The notes under the pieces were generated by a model that searched no databases, had not been told where the DNA came from, and saw nothing but the letters and a program-made list of their open reading frames with translations. Below, piece by piece: positions 13,241-37,546 of a stretch of DNA of 41,336 bases. A program made the translations under genes and the position numbers. The DNA is from a virus, in the IMG/VR virus record IMGVR_UViG_3300028840_001625, positions 1 through 41,336 of that record; one strand, written 5' to 3'. Each line of letters begins with the position of its first letter. The stretch's first letter is position 1.

Positions 13241-13262
13241 GAAATGTTCTCCCTATGTGTTG

Positions 13263-13591
13263 TGGAGTCGGCGGGAATTGAACCCGCGTCCAAAATATTT
13301 CAAAATCCAACTTCTACGATTATAGTTTGATTTTGTTATTTTACGTCACGAAAAAACCAAACAAAAGTTGTGACAACGAGTTTTGATTTACTTTGAGTTG
13401 TCGCCCTCAAAGGTTCTACCGATTATGACATCACTTTACCCAATATCGGTGTCTTGGAGTGACGGCTTAATTCGTTGTGATTAAGCAGCTAATTGTAATT
13501 CGTTGCCAGTTATTTTAGGCTTTTGGATTTCCCACTTCCCAGTGAATCGCTATTAAATCTCTCAGTTATCCTGTCGAATCCGATCGACCCC
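13263..13591 (-). ncRNA. ssrA: tmRNA (SsrA), complete one-piece, tag GNELQLAA
   Basis: The 329-base RNA has the canonical tmRNA ends. The 5' end is GGGGTCGATCGGATTCGACAGG; the 3' end carries GGACGCGGGTTCAATTCCCGC and then CGACTCC, which pairs with GGGGTCG to form the acceptor. The tag frame reads GGC AAC GAA TTA CAA TTA GCT GCT TAA, giving GNELQLAA with a glycine resume codon and the LAA end recognised by ClpXP-type proteases. No CCA is encoded. tmRNA with SmpB frees stalled ribosomes and tags the nascent chain; no smpB is in this window, so host SmpB is assumed. A TATAAT box lies directly upstream (about 13594-13599). Confidence 0.95.
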
Positions 13592-14373: not shown

Positions 14374-15540
14374 CTATTTTTTTAATAAATGTGGTTGAGC
14401 TTCAAGTTGTCCTGCTCTTGTTACTCTCACAAATTCAGCATTCTTTCTAAATTCTTCTATATTTTCAGCACCTACATAACTCATAGATGATTTTATTCCA
14501 TCAGTTATAGATTCTATTATTCGTTTTACTTTCCCTTTATACGGGATAAGTTTTGAGTTACCCTCTATGTTATTATCGTTTTCGCCACGATCTAACTTAC
14601 TCGATTGACTGGCCGACCCGCGATATTGTTTGAATAATTGTTCGTCAGGAAAATTTCCTACTCGTATCAATCTACCTGGCGTTTCCTTAGTTCCGGCAAA
14701 AAGTGATCCCATCATAACCATGTCTGCTCCAAGAGCAATCGCTTTTGCAGCGTCACCGGGTGTCCGTATACCACCATCTGCTATGATAGAAATTCCACTT
14801 CCCTTGAGCACTCGATATACCTCAGCTATCGCTGATGCTTGTGGAATACCTACTCCGGTTCTTATTCTTGTCTCACATAATGACCCATTTCCTATACCAA
14901 CTCTAACACTATCTAATCTCCATTTAACTAAATCTTTAGCTGCATCAGCAGTAGCAATACTCCCACCTATAAGTGTTACGTTGTCGCCGTACTTCTTTCG
15001 TATCTTCGTGACGGCCCTCTTGAGTAAAATGTGATGTCCATGAGCTACATCAAATAAAAATGTCTTGACACCTCTGTTGTGTAACTCTAAAAATCTTTCA
15101 TAATAATCACCGGTTACTCCAATCGCACAAGCAATCATTTGTTGAAAAGCAAACCCGTCTGCAGGTTCAAGTTGAGTTGTCGCAAATCCTGTATTTGATT
15201 CTACATAATTATTATTTTCATACATACAACGATTATGCGGTTGATATTTATACCATTCCCTAAACTTTTCTCTCAAATACATTACTTGTTCGGCTTGTTC
15301 CTCTATCGTCATAAAACGATGTATGAAACCAACTCCGCCGAGCTCCCATAACTGGTACGCCATTTCATGTTCCGTTACAGTATCCATTGGTGAAGATACT
15401 ATTGGAATACGAATCTTGAACATCCCATTATGAGAAAATCCGGTTGTAAGATCACAATCAACCCTTGATAAAACTTTACTATATTTCGGGCGTAATTGTA
15501 AATCATCAAATGTATATGTATCTGGAACAATATGCGTCAT
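14374..15540 (-). CDS. guaB: IMP dehydrogenase-family protein lacking CBS domains
   Basis: The 388-residue protein is a full TIM-barrel of the IMPDH/GMP reductase family. Its catalytic-Cys loop is GIGNGSLCETRIRTGVGIPQ. The phosphate-binding part is IADGGIRTPGDAAKAIALGA, followed by DMVMMGSLFAGTKETPG, and the flap-region segment is NIEGNSKLIPYKGKVKRII. The C-terminus (FVRVTRAGQLEAQPHLL) matches IMPDH more than GMP reductase. Typical bacterial IMPDH is about 490 residues because two CBS domains are inserted; here they are absent. IMPDH converts IMP to XMP with NAD+, the committed step to GTP. NAD+ use connects it to the NadR/PnuC cassette. GGGGAAAGGTT precedes the ATG. Confidence 0.87.
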   Translation of the reverse strand: MTHIVPDTYTFDDLQLRPKYSKVLSRVDCDLTTGFSHNGMFKIRIPIVSSPMDTVTEHEMAYQLWELGGVGFIHRFMTIEEQAEQVMYLREKFREWYKYQPHNRCMYENNNYVESNTGFATTQLEPADGFAFQQMIACAIGVTGDYYERFLELHNRGVKTFLFDVAHGHHILLKRAVTKIRKKYGDNVTLIGGSIATADAAKDLVKWRLDSVRVGIGNGSLCETRIRTGVGIPQASAIAEVYRVLKGSGISIIADGGIRTPGDAAKAIALGADMVMMGSLFAGTKETPGRLIRVGNFPDEQLFKQYRGSASQSSKLDRGENDNNIEGNSKLIPYKGKVKRIIESITDGIKSSMSYVGAENIEEFRKNAEFVRVTRAGQLEAQPHLLKK

Positions 15541-18994: not shown

Positions 18995-19984
18995 TTAATA
19001 CCCCAAAATTTCGCTTATATGTTTTTTAGCTTGTTCTATACGATCATTATAATCGTCGCCATGAATTATCTTATATTCCCAATTACGATTGTCTAACTCT
19101 TTCCTAATCATTCCATAATGTTCAACCCTACGATTTGAAAATGTCCTTGTTCCATCGTCAACCCAAGGCACTTCAGGTGTCAAAAGTAAATGTAAATGAT
19201 ACTTACTATTCCACGACTGTGTCGCTATCCACGCTGGACACGGAACGTTATATAACTCCGCCCACGTCTGTGTCGTCATTAAATCCGTATCACAAATCAA
19301 TAACCGGTTCGCGTGTCTCGCAACTTCATCTTCCCATTGTAATTGACCAGCAGCTATCCGTGAAAAATCCATTGAATTTATCTGAGCGTTCCTTTTCATA
19401 TTGTCAGTATATACCCTACCATATTCAGGTACAAAAGCTGTCTTGTAATGTACGGCTAATTCGTGTGCCATTGTTGTCTTTCCAACAGATTCAGGTCCAA
19501 CTAATACCACTTTCTTGGCGAAAAAATGACGAGCTTCCTTTGGTATCATTTCCCAGTTCGTCATTGGATTTCCACGAATATCCGTCCCTGATATTGGAAA
19601 TGTAACTCTCAACTTGTCCACACATTCATGTTTGATACCAAAAATCTCAGATATTTGATTACCATATTCCTCAGATGTAAATACCACATCTAAATTGCTT
19701 GGTGTATTATCCTTGATTATTTGTGTCCACACTTCCCAAAATTTTACCGGACCTTGATCATAAGTTTCAGGATAATCAGGTACATTTGTCAAGTGAATGA
19801 CATTTGCTTTTGGGAACTTTTCTTTGATCCAATTATAACGAAGATAACCGGGTATAAATTCCGACTCCAAACTACATATTAATATTGTTAAGTTTTTCGC
19901 CCGTTTGAGCCCTTCCTCAATCAAATATGAATGTCCATTGTGTAAAGGATAAAACTTACCTAATATCAACCCATGTTTATACAT
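18995..19984 (-). CDS. nadR: NadR-like bifunctional NMN adenylyltransferase / nicotinamide riboside kinase
   Basis: The protein has two catalytic domains. Residues 5-150 are a nucleotidyltransferase with GKFYPLHNGHSYLIEEGLKR (HxGH-type site GKF.PLHNGH) and ISGTDIRGNP, as in NMN adenylyltransferases. Residues 160-329 are a P-loop kinase with VGPESVGKTTMAHELA and the NadR-type PEYGRVYTDN and ICDTDLMTT. The kinase makes NMN from nicotinamide riboside and the first domain makes NAD+ from NMN. No N-terminal DNA-binding domain is present, unlike enterobacterial NadR. I use ATG 19984 because GAGGG lies 8 bases before it; ATG 19990 is too close. It is the last gene of the receptor-PnuC-helicase-NadR cassette. 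Confidence 0.93.
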   Translation of the reverse strand: MYKHGLILGKFYPLHNGHSYLIEEGLKRAKNLTILICSLESEFIPGYLRYNWIKEKFPKANVIHLTNVPDYPETYDQGPVKFWEVWTQIIKDNTPSNLDVVFTSEEYGNQISEIFGIKHECVDKLRVTFPISGTDIRGNPMTNWEMIPKEARHFFAKKVVLVGPESVGKTTMAHELAVHYKTAFVPEYGRVYTDNMKRNAQINSMDFSRIAAGQLQWEDEVARHANRLLICDTDLMTTQTWAELYNVPCPAWIATQSWNSKYHLHLLLTPEVPWVDDGTRTFSNRRVEHYGMIRKELDNRNWEYKIIHGDDYNDRIEQAKKHISEILGY

Positions 19985-21299
19985 GACCATTTCCCTCTAT
20001 TATTTCTTCCCATGTTATTTTCTTACCACTACTATTGTTTGACATCGTTAAAAATTCGATGGCTCTCGAGGCAGCTGTGTAAAGCCAGCGGGGATTGTCG
20101 CCCCAATAATCGTTGTGAATGTATACATTATCCCACTGTGAGCCTTGTGACTTGTGAGCCGTTATCGCATATCCATATGTTGTTATCAAAACGCTTCTAC
20201 TCAATATAGGTTTCTTGTAAAACTTTCTATCAATCAAATGTTCCAAATCAAAAGGTAATGTGGTTATATCTATCTCAGGATGATAGATTGATGGGCGTAC
20301 CGTATTCGGGAATAAAAACATATCATACTCTCCATCACGACCCATTATTTCTACTTTACAATAATAACAATCTCCAAAACTATCGCCATCTTTGGAATAG
20401 ATTTCTAATGGGCGAATGTCGATTACTTTGTTTACCCGGAATGTCTCCGAATTCTTGTAAGTAGGTGAATTAGCAATCACGATTATTTGATCAGTCTTCC
20501 GGAGCGCACTTGGTTCTTCACCAAACTTGTGTGTTCTGGCCAACTTGTTCAACAATACTCGTGTCTTGTTTTTCGCCACAATGAAAACACTATCATCATA
20601 GTTTTTTAAGCCGTCAAGCCATTTCTTTCCAACTTCCTCAATGTCTAAAACATCCACTTCATCTTTTGACTTTGTTGGAACACAGGACTTCTTTATTTCT
20701 CTCAACTTTGTAACATAGTCAAGGATAACTCCATCATGACGTTGAACATTTTTTAACTCGTAATGTGGATTCCTCAATACTTTTGGATCATCACCGACTG
20801 GCTCAAGTTGAAATCCATCACCTATCTTTATTACTTTCGCCCCATGTTTGGCGATGTGTTTGTTGATGTCGTTGTTTACAAATGTGTCTATCATACTCGA
20901 TTCATCTATGATAACAAGTTGTCCTTGTGTAAAACTACACTTGGCATTCCAGTTTCCATCGTCGTCGGGCTCGCCATAGAGCAAACTGTGTAACGTCCTA
21001 AACTTTTCCTTGTAATCAATTAACCCGGCTAACCAATCTGCTGACTTGTGTCTCAATACCTTGACCGCAGCATTTGTTGGTGCTGATACATAAACATCAT
21101 AATGTAAAATGTCACGAGCATATGAAAATATGTTTTCTATGATTGTGGTTTTACCTGTTCCAGCATATCCTGCTAACTTGAAAGTATTCAAGTTTTGATC
21201 ATACGTTTTTGGTTTCTTTAGAAATTTCTCAACTTCCAGTAACGCTTCCTTTTGATCCTTTGTATAACTAATCTTTTCACTACGTTGTTTGAGTATCAT
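19977..21299 (-). CDS. Dda/RecD-like 5'-3' DNA helicase (SF1B)
   Basis: The 440-residue protein has a Walker A site GYAGTGKTTIIENIF, the motif II IDESSMID, a motif III-like GDGFQLEPVGDD, and the C-terminal UvrD-like strand YAITAHKSQGSQWDNVYIHN followed by YTAASRAI (motif VI). Size and motif order match T4 Dda (about 439 residues), which helps start DNA replication and remove bound proteins. The gene starts 20 bases inside the pnuC end with GGAGAGAG and ends 8 bases into the start of nadR. Its location inside an NAD salvage cassette has no obvious functional reason. Confidence 0.92.
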   Translation of the reverse strand: MILKQRSEKISYTKDQKEALLEVEKFLKKPKTYDQNLNTFKLAGYAGTGKTTIIENIFSYARDILHYDVYVSAPTNAAVKVLRHKSADWLAGLIDYKEKFRTLHSLLYGEPDDDGNWNAKCSFTQGQLVIIDESSMIDTFVNNDINKHIAKHGAKVIKIGDGFQLEPVGDDPKVLRNPHYELKNVQRHDGVILDYVTKLREIKKSCVPTKSKDEVDVLDIEEVGKKWLDGLKNYDDSVFIVAKNKTRVLLNKLARTHKFGEEPSALRKTDQIIVIANSPTYKNSETFRVNKVIDIRPLEIYSKDGDSFGDCYYCKVEIMGRDGEYDMFLFPNTVRPSIYHPEIDITTLPFDLEHLIDRKFYKKPILSRSVLITTYGYAITAHKSQGSQWDNVYIHNDYWGDNPRWLYTAASRAIEFLTMSNNSSGKKITWEEIIEGNGHV

Positions 21300-21879
21300 A
21301 TAACTCTCTCCATTTCCTGTAACCTTGTAACGCCATAAAGAAGAATAAGGCGTATAATCCTGCTGTCATATATAATTCTTTGTAAATAAAAACACCTACA
21401 TAAATAACATCTACTGTGATCCATAAAAACCAATTCTCTATATATCGTTTCGCCAGATAAAAGTTGGCGACCAAACTCAATGATGTGGTAAATGAATCTA
21501 TAATAGGAATATCCGGTTGTCCAATGTAACCACCTTGATACAATCCCATTATTATACTATAAATGAACCACGTTCCTACTAAAACATACATCATAATGGT
21601 TAAAACCATTGTGTCTTTTGGACACGCAGCAAATTGATCCTTATACCTTGTTATTGGTGCTGGTGGCTTGTTACGCAGTTTCGCCCAATTATACCATCCA
21701 TAAAATGATTGACACAAAAATACGATTTGTGTTATGACCTCGGCGTACAGGTTCACAGAGAAAAACAAATGTAAATAAGCACTTACTCCAATAATACCTA
21801 ACGGCCACGCAATAACCTTGTTTTGTATAGTAAAATATACACACGCTAATGTGAATAGAACAGCAATAATTTCTATCAT
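21280..21879 (-). CDS. pnuC: PnuC-family nicotinamide riboside transporter
   Basis: The 199-residue membrane protein has about seven hydrophobic helices and the PnuC hallmarks: NKVIAWPLGIIGVSAYL near the N-terminus, FLCQSFYGWYNWAKLR in the middle, then NFYLAKRYIENWFLWITVDV and KELYMTAGLYALFFFMALQG. PnuC transports unphosphorylated nicotinamide riboside (or thiamine in relatives) by facilitated diffusion and depends on a cytoplasmic kinase for trapping. NadR, encoded two genes away, supplies that kinase, which points to nicotinamide riboside. It starts as ATGA on the stop of the receptor gene. Confidence 0.93.
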   Translation of the reverse strand: MIEIIAVLFTLACVYFTIQNKVIAWPLGIIGVSAYLHLFFSVNLYAEVITQIVFLCQSFYGWYNWAKLRNKPPAPITRYKDQFAACPKDTMVLTIMMYVLVGTWFIYSIIMGLYQGGYIGQPDIPIIDSFTTSLSLVANFYLAKRYIENWFLWITVDVIYVGVFIYKELYMTAGLYALFFFMALQGYRKWRELYDTQTT

Positions 21880-23804
21880 AAGTTTATTGTAACTCCAAGT
21901 GTATAGTTTCTTAAAGCAGCTACATAATAGTTTGCTCCATCATATACATAACCACTATTATAATAATCATTATCAAACACATTGTTTATTGTAAAACTAA
22001 ATATCAACTCTTTGAATGTCGTTTTGAAATATAAATCAGTAACAAAATATGGTTTCATCTTCGTTGTGTTTTCATTATCTAAAAATGATTCTCCCATATA
22101 TCTACAATATACTCCACTCGTAAAATAATGATTTACATTGTAAATCAAGTTCCCGGTGTAAGTCAACTCCGGACTTAACAATGGAGTAACATCTTTGTAG
22201 ACGCCGTACTCTTTTATATTCGATTTATTCACACCTATAAAATTGAACATACTCAAATCTTTTGAAAACTTATATGTTGATTCAATTTCTATTCCTTGTC
22301 TTGTACTCTTTGGTACATTCATTCTCAATGGTAATCCAATGTAACTTAGTTCACCTATGGCGGCGATTTCATTGGTGAAATCCATATGATATAGATTTAC
22401 ATTCAATGTGAAGTCCTTTTCAATATACTTAATTCCCGCCTCAATGTCAAGAACTTTTTCTGGCTCAACTTGATAAGCTTCGTGAATGTTATCTTCATTT
22501 AGATCATCTTCGCCATTGAATAAATCGTTTCGTGTTGGTTCTCTCATGTTTTGACCAATAGAAACATAATACATTCCATACTTTACGCCGACCTTTGGAT
22601 TCACAAATAACCATGAAGTTTTTGGTGGCGAAACACTACCATTGTAAATAAACTCGTTGTATCTTACTTGTACGTCACCAAATAAATCTATGTCTCTCGT
22701 TATGTCATAACTACCTTTTATAAAACCACTCGCCTCATTCTTGATCCCATAATTCTTGTAAACCTCGTCGCCAATTATATCCATTGAATGATTTCGTTTA
22801 TAGGTGTATAAATGAAAACCCGAGTATAGTTTTAACCTTGTAAAATCATAGTTTACATTTAATATGTTACCTAAATAGTATGAATCTAAATTAAAGTTCA
22901 ACATATCCTCTGCCAGAACACCATATGTACCATCTAACTTGATAAAATAGATTGTATTCGTTACGTGTTCACTCATATATGATAATGAATTGAACCAATA
23001 ATGAAAATGATCCTTTTCGTTGGGCGACAAGTAATTCATTTGACGATTGTAACTTAAATCATTTTCGTGTGTCGCCAGGTACGCCATTTCATTCTCTTGA
23101 TTTCCATAAAATGTTATATACTTGAATGCATAGTTTTCCTTGAATACTCCACCACTTAAATAAAATGAATAACCATAATGACCGGAATTGTCACGGTAAC
23201 CTTTCGTATTTACCCTTGAAAATCTTAGATTCAAGCCAATACCATCTTCATTTATACCGAAACTCTGTTCCGCCATGAACTTGTATGTATTGTATGATCC
23301 ATAATTGAAATTCAACCTTGAGTATTCTTCGTCTAAAGTCTTTGATGTGAAATTGAGTGATCCACCATAAGAAGCTGTACCATTACTTGTAGTTCCAACT
23401 CCACGTTGTATTTGTACATCTTGAACGGAACTCAAAAAATCAGGATAGTTGTTGAAATAAACTCCCATATCTTCAGGTTCATTTAGTGGAACACCATCTA
23501 ATGTAGCATTGATCCTTGTTTGATCAATCCCGCGAAGGCGAAAATAAGAATAACCATAAAATGTTCCCATGTCAGAATAAAACTGAATCGCGGGAGTGTA
23601 TGTCAGCATCGCTGGAACATCTTTGTCGTCTAAAGGTATTTGTTGTAAATCATCTTGAGAATATGTTTTCTCTGTAATAGGATTATCTTTTATTCTAAGA
23701 TGTCCTACAACTGAAATTTCTCCATCATATTCATAAACCTTTAGTGTATCTTGTGAAAATACAAATGAAACAAACAACAATAAAATAACCATTATTTTAA
23801 ACAT
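21876..23804 (-). CDS. TonB-dependent outer-membrane receptor
   Basis: I start at ATG 23804 (MFKIMVILLLFVSFVFSQDT) because AAAGGGG precedes it and a clear signal peptide follows; an ATG at 23849 adds 15 residues and no signal logic. The 642-residue protein has a short region after the signal with a TonB-box-like stretch (GEISVVGHLRIK). The plug domain runs over about residues 40-155 (DVPAMLTYTPAIQFY, FRLRGIDQTRINATLDGVPL, VQDVQIQRGVG, ASYGGSLNFTSK). The rest is barrel strands rich in Tyr/Phe. Such receptors import scarce nutrients across the outer membrane. ATGA coupling to pnuC suggests nicotinamide riboside or a related compound as substrate (inference). Confidence 0.93.
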   Translation of the reverse strand: MFKIMVILLLFVSFVFSQDTLKVYEYDGEISVVGHLRIKDNPITEKTYSQDDLQQIPLDDKDVPAMLTYTPAIQFYSDMGTFYGYSYFRLRGIDQTRINATLDGVPLNEPEDMGVYFNNYPDFLSSVQDVQIQRGVGTTSNGTASYGGSLNFTSKTLDEEYSRLNFNYGSYNTYKFMAEQSFGINEDGIGLNLRFSRVNTKGYRDNSGHYGYSFYLSGGVFKENYAFKYITFYGNQENEMAYLATHENDLSYNRQMNYLSPNEKDHFHYWFNSLSYMSEHVTNTIYFIKLDGTYGVLAEDMLNFNLDSYYLGNILNVNYDFTRLKLYSGFHLYTYKRNHSMDIIGDEVYKNYGIKNEASGFIKGSYDITRDIDLFGDVQVRYNEFIYNGSVSPPKTSWLFVNPKVGVKYGMYYVSIGQNMREPTRNDLFNGEDDLNEDNIHEAYQVEPEKVLDIEAGIKYIEKDFTLNVNLYHMDFTNEIAAIGELSYIGLPLRMNVPKSTRQGIEIESTYKFSKDLSMFNFIGVNKSNIKEYGVYKDVTPLLSPELTYTGNLIYNVNHYFTSGVYCRYMGESFLDNENTTKMKPYFVTDLYFKTTFKELIFSFTINNVFDNDYYNSGYVYDGANYYVAALRNYTLGVTINL

Positions 23805-23817
23805 AACTACCCCTTTC

Positions 23818-24042
23818 TTATCTAAATGCGATAAAGTCCAATTCATCAAGTTTAACTGTTTGGCAAAATGGATGTGAATCTTTCGGGTCTTTTGGTTGCA
23901 TAACCACTATTCCCATTTCGTCTTTTGTTTCGCCGTCTGGGCTTACTCTTGTCCATTGATGAACTAATGTTACACGACATTCATTATATGATTCATCCTT
24001 GAACTTTACCCACGGCCCTTCACTCATTTCGATTTTTTTCAT
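23818..24042 (-). CDS. Small soluble protein upstream of receptor gene
   Basis: I choose ATG 24042 (MKKIEMSEGPWVKFKDESY), which overlaps the previous stop as TGATG with GGGGAAG just before it; an upstream start at 24072 would overlap more. The 74-residue protein has a compact beta pattern (ECRVTLVHQWTRVSPDG, MGIVVMQPKDPK) and ends LDELDFIAFR. It is translated just before the receptor gene. No function recognised. Confidence 0.7.
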   Translation of the reverse strand: MKKIEMSEGPWVKFKDESYNECRVTLVHQWTRVSPDGETKDEMGIVVMQPKDPKDSHPFCQTVKLDELDFIAFR

Positions 24043-24230
24043 CACTTCCCCAATATGTTTTTGTCGATCCATAAATCGGCACCACGATATGTATTAAAAT
24101 ATCTTATCGTCCACCATATAATAAATTTACCTTGAACAGCGTAAAGCGTTTCATTCCAATCACCCATCATATTTGGCGAATGAATAGGTTTTACTCTGTA
24201 CTTACTAAACAAGATTGCACTTAATGACAT
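24042..24230 (-). CDS. Small aromatic protein of unknown function
   Basis: The 62-residue protein starts at ATG 24230 (MSLSAILFSKYRVKPIHS), which overlaps the stop of the previous gene as TAATG, with GAAAGGG before it. It is rich in Trp/Tyr (GKFIIWWTIRYFNTYRG). A longer frame from 24332 exists but lacks support. Both neighbours are coupled by stop/start overlaps. Confidence 0.65.
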   Translation of the reverse strand: MSLSAILFSKYRVKPIHSPNMMGDWNETLYAVQGKFIIWWTIRYFNTYRGADLWIDKNILGK

Positions 24231-24388
24231 TACATAACCCTTTCTAATTTGTCCATCGTATATACATTTATATGATTTAATCTGCGATCTAAAATAACCC
24301 GTGGTGACTTTTTCCAAGACGGAGCAATCCATAGAATTATTGCTGTTTCCTTTTCGCCTATGAGGCGAACTTTATCACCACTTTTCAT
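24230..24388 (-). CDS. Small protein beginning at the 3' end of a tRNA-like gene
   Basis: The 52-residue protein begins MKSGDKVRLIGEKETAIILW at ATG 24388, two bases after the tRNA-like gene, whose last bases (CGAGAG) also serve as the ribosome site. It has a small beta-barrel look (GDKVRLIGEKETAIILWI, SPRVILDRRLNHINVYTMDK), similar to short KOW/SH3-like proteins in phages. This is suggestive only. A tRNA 3' cut would remove the ribosome site, so RNA processing and translation might compete (inference). Confidence 0.65.
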   Translation of the reverse strand: MKSGDKVRLIGEKETAIILWIAPSWKKSPRVILDRRLNHINVYTMDKLERVM

Positions 24389-24390
24389 AG

Positions 24391-24470
24391 AACTCTCGGT
24401 GAGATTCGAACTCACGTTTTCAGCTCCGGCTACGGCTAACAGGGTCGAAACCTGCCCCGGCTACGAGAGC
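24391..24470 (-). tRNA. Aberrant tRNA-Arg-like gene (anticodon TCG) without a normal D-arm
   Basis: Acceptor GCTCTCG pairs with CGAGAGT (G1-U72). A regular anticodon arm GCAGG / loop TTTCGAC / CCTGT gives anticodon TCG with T33 and A37. The T-arm GTGAG TTCGAAT CTCAC is normal. Between acceptor and anticodon arm only 8 bases (TAGCCGGG) exist instead of a D-arm, while 23 bases (ending in GGAGCTGAAAAC) lie between the anticodon and T arms. The second gene at 24615 has the same layout base for base. It may be a tRNA with a displaced D-like element, or a tRNA mimic. No CCA is encoded. Confidence 0.6.
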
Positions 24471-35833: not shown

Positions 35834-37477
35834 TTAGAATTTATCCATAATAAAGTCACTCATTATAGATGGCGCGTTTGTGTCGAAACCAACAACGTCG
35901 AGTGAGCTTCTATCCTTTGGATCAGCAATAGTGAAACCATTCGATGCCATACCAACTACAACTAACTTGACATCGTGACCCACTTTATGACGATAACGAT
36001 CCATTGCTTCGCTTGGTTGGATATTTCCTGCCCAAGTTTCATTATCGGTATATACAAAAATCGCGTCAAAATCCTTGTTCATACCAGCGGCCCACAATGC
36101 TGGTAAAGCACAATCAGTTCCACCAAAATCTAACCTGCTAACGTAATTATCCACATCATTCAAACTCATTCTATCGTGTAACTTCAATTCCGTTACATTA
36201 GTTAACGCTTGACCAGAACCATACCAACCACCACCGGTAAATCCAATAATACCCCAGTTCTTTTCAGCTTTCATCGTTACCATAGCCATTGCGGACGATG
36301 CGGAACGACAACTGATAAATGGAGCGTTTTGAATACCACTACCCATAGAACCAGATACATCCAAAGCAATCAAGATTCTCTTACCCGTAGACTCAATGTT
36401 CTTGAATGCTTTGTAAAATCCTGCGTCCAAAGCGGAAACGATTTGTGGTACAACGTTCCAAGTATTAGACCCACGAAAACCACGTCCTGCTTCATAGGTT
36501 TTCAAAGCCATTAATAATTGAATAGGATGTACACGTGCTTTCTTTAACGCTTCATCATTAGTGATCTTGTCAACCACTAAGTTGATTTCGTCAAAGTTAC
36601 CACTTTCCAAGATACCAACTTTGGATAAGTTACCTAAATTACGAATTAACGCAGTCATAGGCATTGTTGGTAACAACGCTTCGTATACTTTCTTTCCTAA
36701 GAATTGTGTAGGAATAGCTTCCCGTGGCAAGTTATATTCCTTAATCAAGTTCACAATTTCCTTTTCATTTTCGGCTTTCTTTGCTAACTCAAAACCATAA
36801 ATCATTGGAATTTTCCTATACTTCTCAATGTCGCCATTGATTCCTTGAGTAATCCAATGGAATACCTTGTTCATATCTTCATTGACGGCTTGTGCATGAG
36901 ACTTACGTAAAATGTCACGGTGACTCCACCCGTCACGAGATTGATACTTGACTACTTGATACGCCAACTTGTTGATGTCCTTGTCGGTGTACCACTTGGC
37001 GAATGCCTTACGTAATCCACGACCCCAACCACGCATCGAGTTTACGAACTCTGTGAAATGGAATAAATGAGTACCAATACGTGCTACTTTACTCAAGTTG
37101 TCCAAAGCGTACTTCTTAGCTTCGTCAGTTCCATAGGAAGCAACCATCGCTAATACGAATAACGCTGGATCATTATTAGGTGCACGACCCTCTAAAGAAA
37201 TCTCAACTACACGATTTACAACTTCAATGCCATCTTCCTTGATTAACTTTTCAATGTTCTTAGCATTCTTCTTAGTTAACTTTTGCGCGGATGCGTAATA
37301 AGTTGGTTGATCGCTACCCAATACTAAGAAACGATTTAACTTATCCCACTTGTCCAACTTAAATGAGACGCCACCGCCATAATTCTTAGCCATATCTTTC
37401 TTACGACCCTTGATTTTTTGGTTTTGTGGAGTTGCTACCTTAGTAGACTTGTTTAAAGTTTTGGTATAATTTTGCAT
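35834..37477 (-). CDS. rsr: Ro60 (TROVE) RNA-binding protein with vWA domain
   Basis: The 547-residue protein has the Ro architecture. A HEAT-like TROVE ring runs from about residue 40 to 360 (FLVLGSDQPTYYASAQKLTK, VVNRVVEISLEGRAPNNDPA, GWSHRDILRKSHA). A C-terminal von Willebrand A domain follows with a MIDAS motif LDVSGSMG, a Thr/Ser site (DFGGTDCALPAL) and FVYTDNETW. Ro binds the ends of misfolded or trimmed RNAs through the ring and binds Y RNAs on its outer surface; bacterial Ro (Rsr) works with nucleases in RNA decay and repair. ATG 37477 has AGGAGGG 7 bases upstream; the ATG at 37531 lies in the terminator and is rejected. It is preceded by non-coding RNA genes. Confidence 0.93.
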   Translation of the reverse strand: MQNYTKTLNKSTKVATPQNQKIKGRKKDMAKNYGGGVSFKLDKWDKLNRFLVLGSDQPTYYASAQKLTKKNAKNIEKLIKEDGIEVVNRVVEISLEGRAPNNDPALFVLAMVASYGTDEAKKYALDNLSKVARIGTHLFHFTEFVNSMRGWGRGLRKAFAKWYTDKDINKLAYQVVKYQSRDGWSHRDILRKSHAQAVNEDMNKVFHWITQGINGDIEKYRKIPMIYGFELAKKAENEKEIVNLIKEYNLPREAIPTQFLGKKVYEALLPTMPMTALIRNLGNLSKVGILESGNFDEINLVVDKITNDEALKKARVHPIQLLMALKTYEAGRGFRGSNTWNVVPQIVSALDAGFYKAFKNIESTGKRILIALDVSGSMGSGIQNAPFISCRSASSAMAMVTMKAEKNWGIIGFTGGGWYGSGQALTNVTELKLHDRMSLNDVDNYVSRLDFGGTDCALPALWAAGMNKDFDAIFVYTDNETWAGNIQPSEAMDRYRHKVGHDVKLVVVGMASNGFTIADPKDRSSLDVVGFDTNAPSIMSDFIMDKF

Positions 37478-37521
37478 GATTCGACCCTCCTGTTTAAAGG
37501 TAAATGTTATATAAACTAAAA

Positions 37522-37546
37522 AACCCGACAAGATATTTGTCGGGTT
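37522..37546 (-). terminator. Terminator (possible attenuator) just before Ro gene
   Basis: On the minus strand ACCCGACAA pairs with TTGTCGGGT around a 5-base loop and is followed by six T, 30 bases before the Ro ribosome site. An upstream segment AAGATATTT (37568-37560) is the exact complement of the loop region AAATATCTT (37538-37530), so an alternative fold exists. The pairing supports conditional termination, which is an inference. Confidence 0.8.

Follow-up and report, generated by a model that had tools for sequence, protein, structure and literature searches.

Why would a phage carry, side by side, a nutrient receptor of the outer membrane, a transporter of the inner membrane and an enzyme that makes NAD+? 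The question is raised by positions 18995-23804 (minus strand) of the IMG/VR virus record IMGVR_UViG_3300028840_001625, of which we analyzed positions 1-41,336 (the window). As the original prediction had it, a TonB-dependent receptor (TBDR), a PnuC-family transporter, a Dda-like helicase and NadR are all encoded there on the minus strand (Table 1). We consider it probable that this cassette is a phage-borne copy of a nicotinamide riboside (NR) utilization operon of Bacteroidota, which would import NR to hold the NAD+ pool high during infection. The same phage is represented by a longer record of 161,620 bp, IMGVR_UViG_3300017971_000200 (hereafter G001), which includes the window base for base (G001 position = window position + 6322). 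A chimeric or bacterial contig was ruled out by the baseplate wedge protein encoded in the window, by further phage-family genes in G001 and by the presence of the cassette in terminase-bearing genomes of huge phages.

The open reading frame (ORF) of the receptor spans 21876-23849, a longer, TTG-started frame extending to 23849. When read from the ATG at 23804, the 642-residue protein begins with a stretch resembling a signal peptide, MFKIMVILLLFVSFVFSQ followed by DTLK (read from the sequence); the residues QDTL after this putative signal peptide are invariant across four aligned phage receptors, and the sequence EISVV, which fits the consensus L-x-EVxV that members of the family have close to their N-terminus, may be the TonB box. 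Two Pfam domains score above their cut-offs, Plug (42 bits, from about residue 38) and TonB_dep_Rec_b-barrel (76.3 bits), and Pfam gave no N-terminal extension domain; PHROGs returned no family for the receptor in the same search that named NadR, PnuC and the helicase. An AlphaFold model built from 53 sequences, with the rows of the phages collection left out, comprises a plug and a full barrel (mean predicted local distance difference test score 89.2, predicted TM-score 0.88). Among solved structures in the PDB its best match is PqqU with pyrroloquinoline quinone (PQQ) bound (TM 0.82/0.80), followed by YncD and FecA; FhuA was also matched. The fear that the receptor might be truncated is thus not borne out: the predicted structure is that of a full-length plug-and-barrel receptor whose nearest solved fold, PqqU, is a receptor for a small cofactor. 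Fold and sequence, as modeled, place the protein among the TBDRs, nearest to a small-cofactor receptor, and do not by themselves specify the ligand.

It is the company kept by the receptor in bacteria that suggests a ligand. The 80 closest bacterial receptors listed, the neighborhood to which all our bacterial fractions apply, are mainly from Bacteroidota. Counting one row per locus and scoring 3 kb downstream of the receptor, PnuC and NadR both follow in 47 of the 80, and NadR in another 18 of the 80; the junctions between the genes mostly overlap by 0-12 nt. The order TBDR-PnuC-helicase-NadR in the window, with its short junctions, fits that of this bacterial operon. At the loci nearest to the window cassette (L035-L037) there are further genes for an NrtR-type repressor, phosphoribosyl pyrophosphate synthetase or nicotinamide phosphoribosyltransferase (NAMPT), and in Flammeovirga the gene for NrtR, a repressor of NAD genes, stands directly before the receptor. 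This context (PnuC-NadR, NrtR, NAMPT) makes an NAD precursor, most simply NR, the likely ligand. At one of these loci, L037 (3437-5894), the TBDR-PnuC-NadR operon lies beside a macrodomain protein and ADP-ribosylglycohydrolases, which hints at a conflict over NAD and ADP-ribose.

PnuC and NadR of the cassette are consistent with such a ligand. PnuC matches the Pfam NMN_transporter family PF04973 (161.4 bits), passes the equivalog model TIGR01528 (104.4 bits; cut-off 42.45) and aligns with the NR transporter structure 4qtn; since its partner is NadR and no thiamine kinase is present, its substrate would be NR instead of thiamine. NadR (phrog_3462, E=1.9e-75) aligns end to end with the solved NadRs 8x7f (E 5e-41) and 1lw7 (E 2e-39), and the motifs of both catalytic domains, GKFYPLHNGH, ISGTDIR, GPESVGKTT, ICDTD and DGTR, are intact. 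It starts with the adenylyltransferase domain and lacks the N-terminal DNA-binding domain; thus, NadR is here an enzyme and not a regulator. The helicase (phrog_325, E=1.7e-63) lies between pnuC and nadR in the window's phage only and is missing from the cassette at all other loci compared. That the receptor might instead serve thiamine or another vitamin, the transporter being a PnuT, we regard as unlikely. The fold alone does not discriminate, and a relative with 26% identity (L007) leads a TBDR-PnuT-thiamine pyrophosphokinase operon; however, a thiamine kinase was found at none of the 80 bacterial loci (0/80) and at no viral locus, and NadR, sometimes with NrtR and NAMPT, stands there instead. 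A thiamine receptor was rejected because no thiamine kinase lies beside any close relative. A carbohydrate receptor of the SusC type was likewise ruled out, since there is no SusD close by, the next gene encodes PnuC and the extension domain is absent; the sole full-length match to the receptor in a viral structure library is named 'SusC', from an uncultured marine phage.

Receptors of this kind were found in 24 of the 50,697 phage records searched, part of them short, unverified fecal contigs of bacterial appearance, L007 among them. NadR, by comparison, occurs in 768 records, so that the receptor is the distinguishing trait of this group of phages. IMG/VR contributed 25 receptor loci. In the viral tally, PnuC and NadR lie within 3 kb downstream of the receptor at 18 loci and NadR at 6 more, a count slightly understated because L038 (JAJFLM010000305.1) was tallied as bacterial. 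Binned as a deltaproteobacterium, L038 groups inside the viral rows in the receptor and NadR trees and is probably a mis-binned phage contig. The search of phage genomes for a receptor next to pnuC, suggested with the original prediction, found LR756502 (642 kb) and LR745206 (635 kb; receptor 38.6% identical to that of the window), in which TBDR, PnuC and NadR are directly adjacent in that order, with no helicase gene between them. In LR756501 (735 kb) the three genes are spaced over no more than 4.6 kb; genes for nicotinate phosphoribosyltransferase and NAD synthetase immediately precede them, and a nicotinamidase-like gene follows. The receptor of the Lak phages is less closely related (27%), and NadR and PnuC lie 5-7 kb from it. 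In two well-diverged phage pairs, dN/dS of the TBDR, PnuC and NadR genes is low (0.086-0.165 for LR745206 and L011; 0.038-0.159 for LR756501 and L020), and the three genes are therefore retained for function, under purifying selection. The full-length model, the conservation of the receptor and these dN/dS values together rule out a truncated receptor or a stray host gene.

In the receptor tree, viral rows are interspersed with bacterial ones, which forces at least four changes between viral and bacterial carriers; the NadR tree forces at least two. A single viral origin of the receptor is disfavored by these changes, although the window row is long-branched. Several acquisitions from Bacteroidota are likely on the basis of the trees, in both of which the window protein lies close to the Bacteroidetes loci L034-L037 (support 90).

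One relative may also bring its own means of energizing the receptor. LR756501 encodes a TonB protein (470220-471020, minus strand; L146:6221-7021) in which a TonB_C domain (79 bits) is preceded by a membrane helix and a proline-rich linker, and in a relative, G009, a TonB C-terminal domain lies behind a membrane helix with the proline-rich linker mostly gone (L147:5273-5782, minus strand); both adjoin phage genes. LR756501 also encodes a MazG-type pyrophosphohydrolase domain fused to a NadD-type adenylyltransferase (L148:2858-3778). The phage TonB bears on a further explanation, in which the receptor would remodel the cell surface, masking, replacing or competing with a host receptor and so excluding other phages or bacteriocins, and its link to PnuC and NadR would be incidental. 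Phages often use TBDRs such as FhuA as their receptors, and superinfection-exclusion proteins acting on TBDRs are known (8a60, among our fold matches). Nonetheless, the tight and repeated coupling to PnuC and NadR in phages and bacteria, the purifying selection over the whole cassette and the presence, in one lineage, of a TonB that a decoy would not need make this explanation very improbable; a blocking role alone is less likely in view of that coupling and of the phage TonB gene.

The cassette is not the only NAD+ route of this phage. G001 holds, 46-51 kb past the right-hand end of the window and on the same strand, a second NAD cluster with genes for NadD, a radical-SAM protein, PncB, NadE and PncA, and the four NAD enzymes pass their curated cut-offs (PncA 219.7 bits, cut-off 174; PncB 407, 269.55; NadD 134.8, 112.45; NadE 244, 63.65). 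As annotated from these models, PncA, PncB, NadD and NadE make up a complete deamidating route from nicotinamide through nicotinate, nicotinate mononucleotide and nicotinate adenine dinucleotide to NAD+. NAMPT is absent from the 161.6-kb record, which is possibly incomplete; the sole such gene encodes nicotinate phosphoribosyltransferase (TIGR01514, 407 bits). A PncB of this kind is rare among phages (16 of the 50,697 records). In the receptor-bearing viral records, NAD synthetase is above its cut-off in 10/28, a nicotinamidase-like protein is present in 10/28, with the strict cut-off passed only by the window's phage, and a nicotinate phosphoribosyltransferase/NAMPT-family gene was found in 12 of the 19 searched.

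The same biochemistry could serve either of two purposes. The imported precursor and NadR may mainly refill NAD+ from outside after attack by SIR2, TIR and other NADase defenses, with the PncA-PncB-NadD-NadE route recycling the nicotinamide that NADase enzymes release; taken together, these two parts have, in our estimate, a real chance of being correct, if one short of even. The phage has the full recycling route and, in addition, a NADAR protein (G001 78402-78866, minus strand; L141:18402-18866; TIGR02464, 118 bits against a cut-off of 73.7) that possibly reverses ADP-ribosylation. Moreover, the rebuilding of NAD+ as a phage counter-defense is established for NARP1 (PMC12774641, PMC12846349), and the sister bacterial operon at L037 adjoins a macrodomain protein and an ADP-ribosylglycohydrolase. 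However, the operon also exists in bacteria, where it presumably serves normal nutrition, and secretion and insertion of a receptor are slow relative to fast abortive NADases. Alternatively, NAD+ may be raised simply to meet demand, for replication and repair (an NAD+-dependent ligase, IMP dehydrogenase, long infections) or in hosts unable to make their own NAD+, with no defense involved, and this comes close to an even prospect. G001 encodes an NAD+-dependent DNA ligase, LigA (478 bits; cut-off 444), the window encodes a protein of the IMP dehydrogenase/GMP reductase family (14374-15540), and huge phages carry much other metabolism. Yet two complete routes plus import appear to exceed the needs of a ligase, and most phages with NadR manage without the receptor (768 NadR records against 24 receptor records). 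Both purposes fit, and our data do not discriminate between them. A bolder proposal, that huge phages of Bacteroidota carry a portable 'refueling line' of receptor (with a phage TonB in one lineage), PnuC and NadR which reaches outside the cell and, backed by internal recycling of nicotinamide, overcomes NAD+-depleting immunity through an imported precursor as well as by reassembly of NAD+ from its breakdown products, is put forward as tentative, and we hold it to be more doubtful than probable.

For a phage-borne NR-utilization operon, the steps can be envisaged as follows. Once expressed, the receptor would be inserted into the outer membrane by the host secretion and beta-barrel assembly (BAM) machinery and, with TonB/ExbBD, would pull NR, or a closely related compound, for instance nicotinamide mononucleotide (NMN), across that membrane; PnuC would then pass NR across the inner membrane, the kinase of NadR would trap it as NMN and its adenylyltransferase would convert NMN to NAD+. 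Nicotinamide freed by NAD+-consuming enzymes could be recycled to NAD+ through PncA, PncB, NadD and NadE. In this way the NAD+ pool would stay high while the supply of the host fails, and the phage might benefit by resisting NAD+-depleting defenses or by meeting a demand such as that of its NAD+-dependent DNA ligase.

That the cassette adds an outer-membrane receptor to a PnuC-NadR line, as was originally proposed, is supported by the coupling of the bacterial receptors to PnuC and NadR (partly also to NrtR and NAMPT) and not to thiamine genes, by recurrence in huge phages, by the full-length receptor model, by the second NAD+ route and by the TonB of a relative. Several observations nevertheless weigh against an NR-utilization operon. 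The nearest solved receptors are less than 20% identical and have PQQ or iron chelates as ligands, 15 of the 80 bacterial loci have neither PnuC nor NadR near, and the distant relative L007, from a gut bacterium, heads the thiamine-type operon described above. NadR scores under NCBI's strict TIGR01526 cut-off (247.7 against 341.15 bits), a cut-off that is an annotation threshold and not a biochemical feature, and under which a Bacteroidota NadR orthologue (L036, 268.6 bits) likewise falls. No NrtR was found before the phage cassette, where the upstream ORFs 23818-24072 and 24042-24332 match no family, and no known riboswitch precedes it; riboswitch control was dismissed, as Rfam gave none either in the window or around the second NAD cluster. 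At 1.28 changes per site, the branch of the window receptor is long, which makes its exact place in the tree unsure. Lastly, TonB was not found in the window's phage. An ExbB of phage origin was dismissed, none being present in the 28 receptor-bearing viral records (0/28); with neither protein in this phage, ExbBD and, here, also TonB would therefore have to come from the host.

Because of the overlaps between their frames, the four genes are predicted to lie on one transcript. The original prediction put these overlaps at 8-20 bases at most; the frames do overlap, by 4 nt (ATGA) between TBDR and PnuC, 20 nt between PnuC and helicase and 14 nt between helicase and NadR, so that the range given was inexact. 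A terminator scan gave a result near chance level, and a promoter scan (49 sites, 41 expected) was uninformative. Upstream of the cassette, at 24390-24470 (minus strand), a tRNA-like gene with a four-base anticodon (gtta), scoring just 33 bits against the Rfam tRNA model, overlaps a small ORF.

Table 1. Features of the NAD+ cassette in the window, from the receptor to NadR.
Feature	Position	Strand	Basis
TonB-dependent outer-membrane receptor (TBDR)	21876..23804	-	642 aa from ATG at 23804; Pfam, AlphaFold, fold match, kept in other huge phages
Receptor, putative signal-peptide coding stretch (MFKIMVILLLFVSFVFSQ)	23751..23804	-	read from sequence
Receptor, TonB-box-like stretch EISVV	23706..23720	-	read from sequence
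PnuC-family inner-membrane transporter, 199 aa	21280..21879	-	PF04973, TIGR01528
Dda-like superfamily 1 (SF1) helicase, 440 aa	19977..21299	-	phrog_325
NadR, NMN adenylyltransferase + ribosylnicotinamide kinase, 331 aa	18995..19990	-	phrog_3462, motifs, PDB homologues

Elsewhere in the phage, the window encodes a transfer-messenger RNA with the tag GNELQLAA (13260-13591, minus strand; Rfam RF00023, 137 bits), close to which lie tRNA genes, and a Ro60/TROVE-domain RNA-binding protein with a vWA domain (35834-37531, minus strand; Pfam TROVE 136 bits, vWA_Ro60 190 bits). Three adjacent small genes with the common N-terminal motif GFVSNSS(S/T)SSFV form a paralogue array (G001 47109-48287, minus strand; L140:7109-8287), the first of which begins within the right end of the window. 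A series of paralogues of 240-250 residues with a DAxNPKSY...W.DLSG motif, resembling surface-binding domains, lies at G001 138863-143252 (L144/L145, minus strand).

The rebuilding of NAD+ inside infected cells is already known for phages; an added outer-membrane nutrient receptor would alter the uptake of the host from its surroundings, would tie the outcome of infection to an environmental vitamin and would give a concrete function to megaphage receptors guessed to be carbohydrate receptors. It also raises a testable question: does NR supply aid such phages, most of all against NAD+-depleting defenses? In the open-access literature, a scope that is no proof of absence, we found no paper tying a receptor of this kind to phage PnuC and NadR, and the main text of two Lak phage papers names neither TonB nor NAD. 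The original prediction knew of no well-described phage operon with the receptor included, which holds for the link to PnuC and NadR and less so for the receptor itself, once mentioned as 'SusC' in Mar_Mega_1 and LR745206, with carbohydrate uptake proposed (PMC9723777). LR745206 is the genome whose receptor is homologous to that of the window, and in it PnuC and NadR come immediately after that receptor. What appears new is thus a phage NAD+ salvage with an outer-membrane step, apparently undescribed so far, added to it.

PnuC and NadR are themselves known in phages, as in Agrobacterium phage Atu_ph07 (PMC6102473), and PnuC-NadR salvage genes occur in many T5-like and Vibrio phages; an NAD+ salvage pathway has also been ascribed to KVP40 (Lee et al., 2017, as cited in PMC9723777 and PMC6102473). 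What these systems have in common with the window's phage is PnuC and NadR, or else NAD+ salvage genes of other kinds, but no outer-membrane receptor is reported for them; the window's phage adds the receptor and the PncA-PncB-NadD-NadE route. Reconstitution of NAD+ by phage pathways named NARP1 and NARP2 was reportedly described by Osterman and colleagues in 2024, and the likeness to the present case lies in phage genes that rebuild NAD+. A NARP2-like pathway is defined by NAMPT. NARP1 works inside the cell from ADP-ribose and nicotinamide, via Adps and Namat (PMC12774641), whereas the window's line is predicted to import a precursor and relies on NadR, and its internal route goes by way of nicotinate (PncB) and not of NAMPT. 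PqqU and YncD offer the closest solved fold (TM about 0.8), and PqqU likewise serves a small cofactor; they differ in identity (19%), in ligand (PQQ) and in that no partnership with PnuC and NadR is known for PqqU. We found no description of the bacterial TBDR-PnuC-NadR operon in the open-access literature and recognize it here from genomes of Flammeovirga, Chitinophaga, Niastella, Zobellia and others; in part of these NrtR accompanies it. It has the same three genes, in the same order and with short junctions, its receptors being 33-41% and its NadR at most 45% identical to the phage proteins; the window version, in contrast, is borne by a phage, has a helicase gene inserted and has no NrtR before it.

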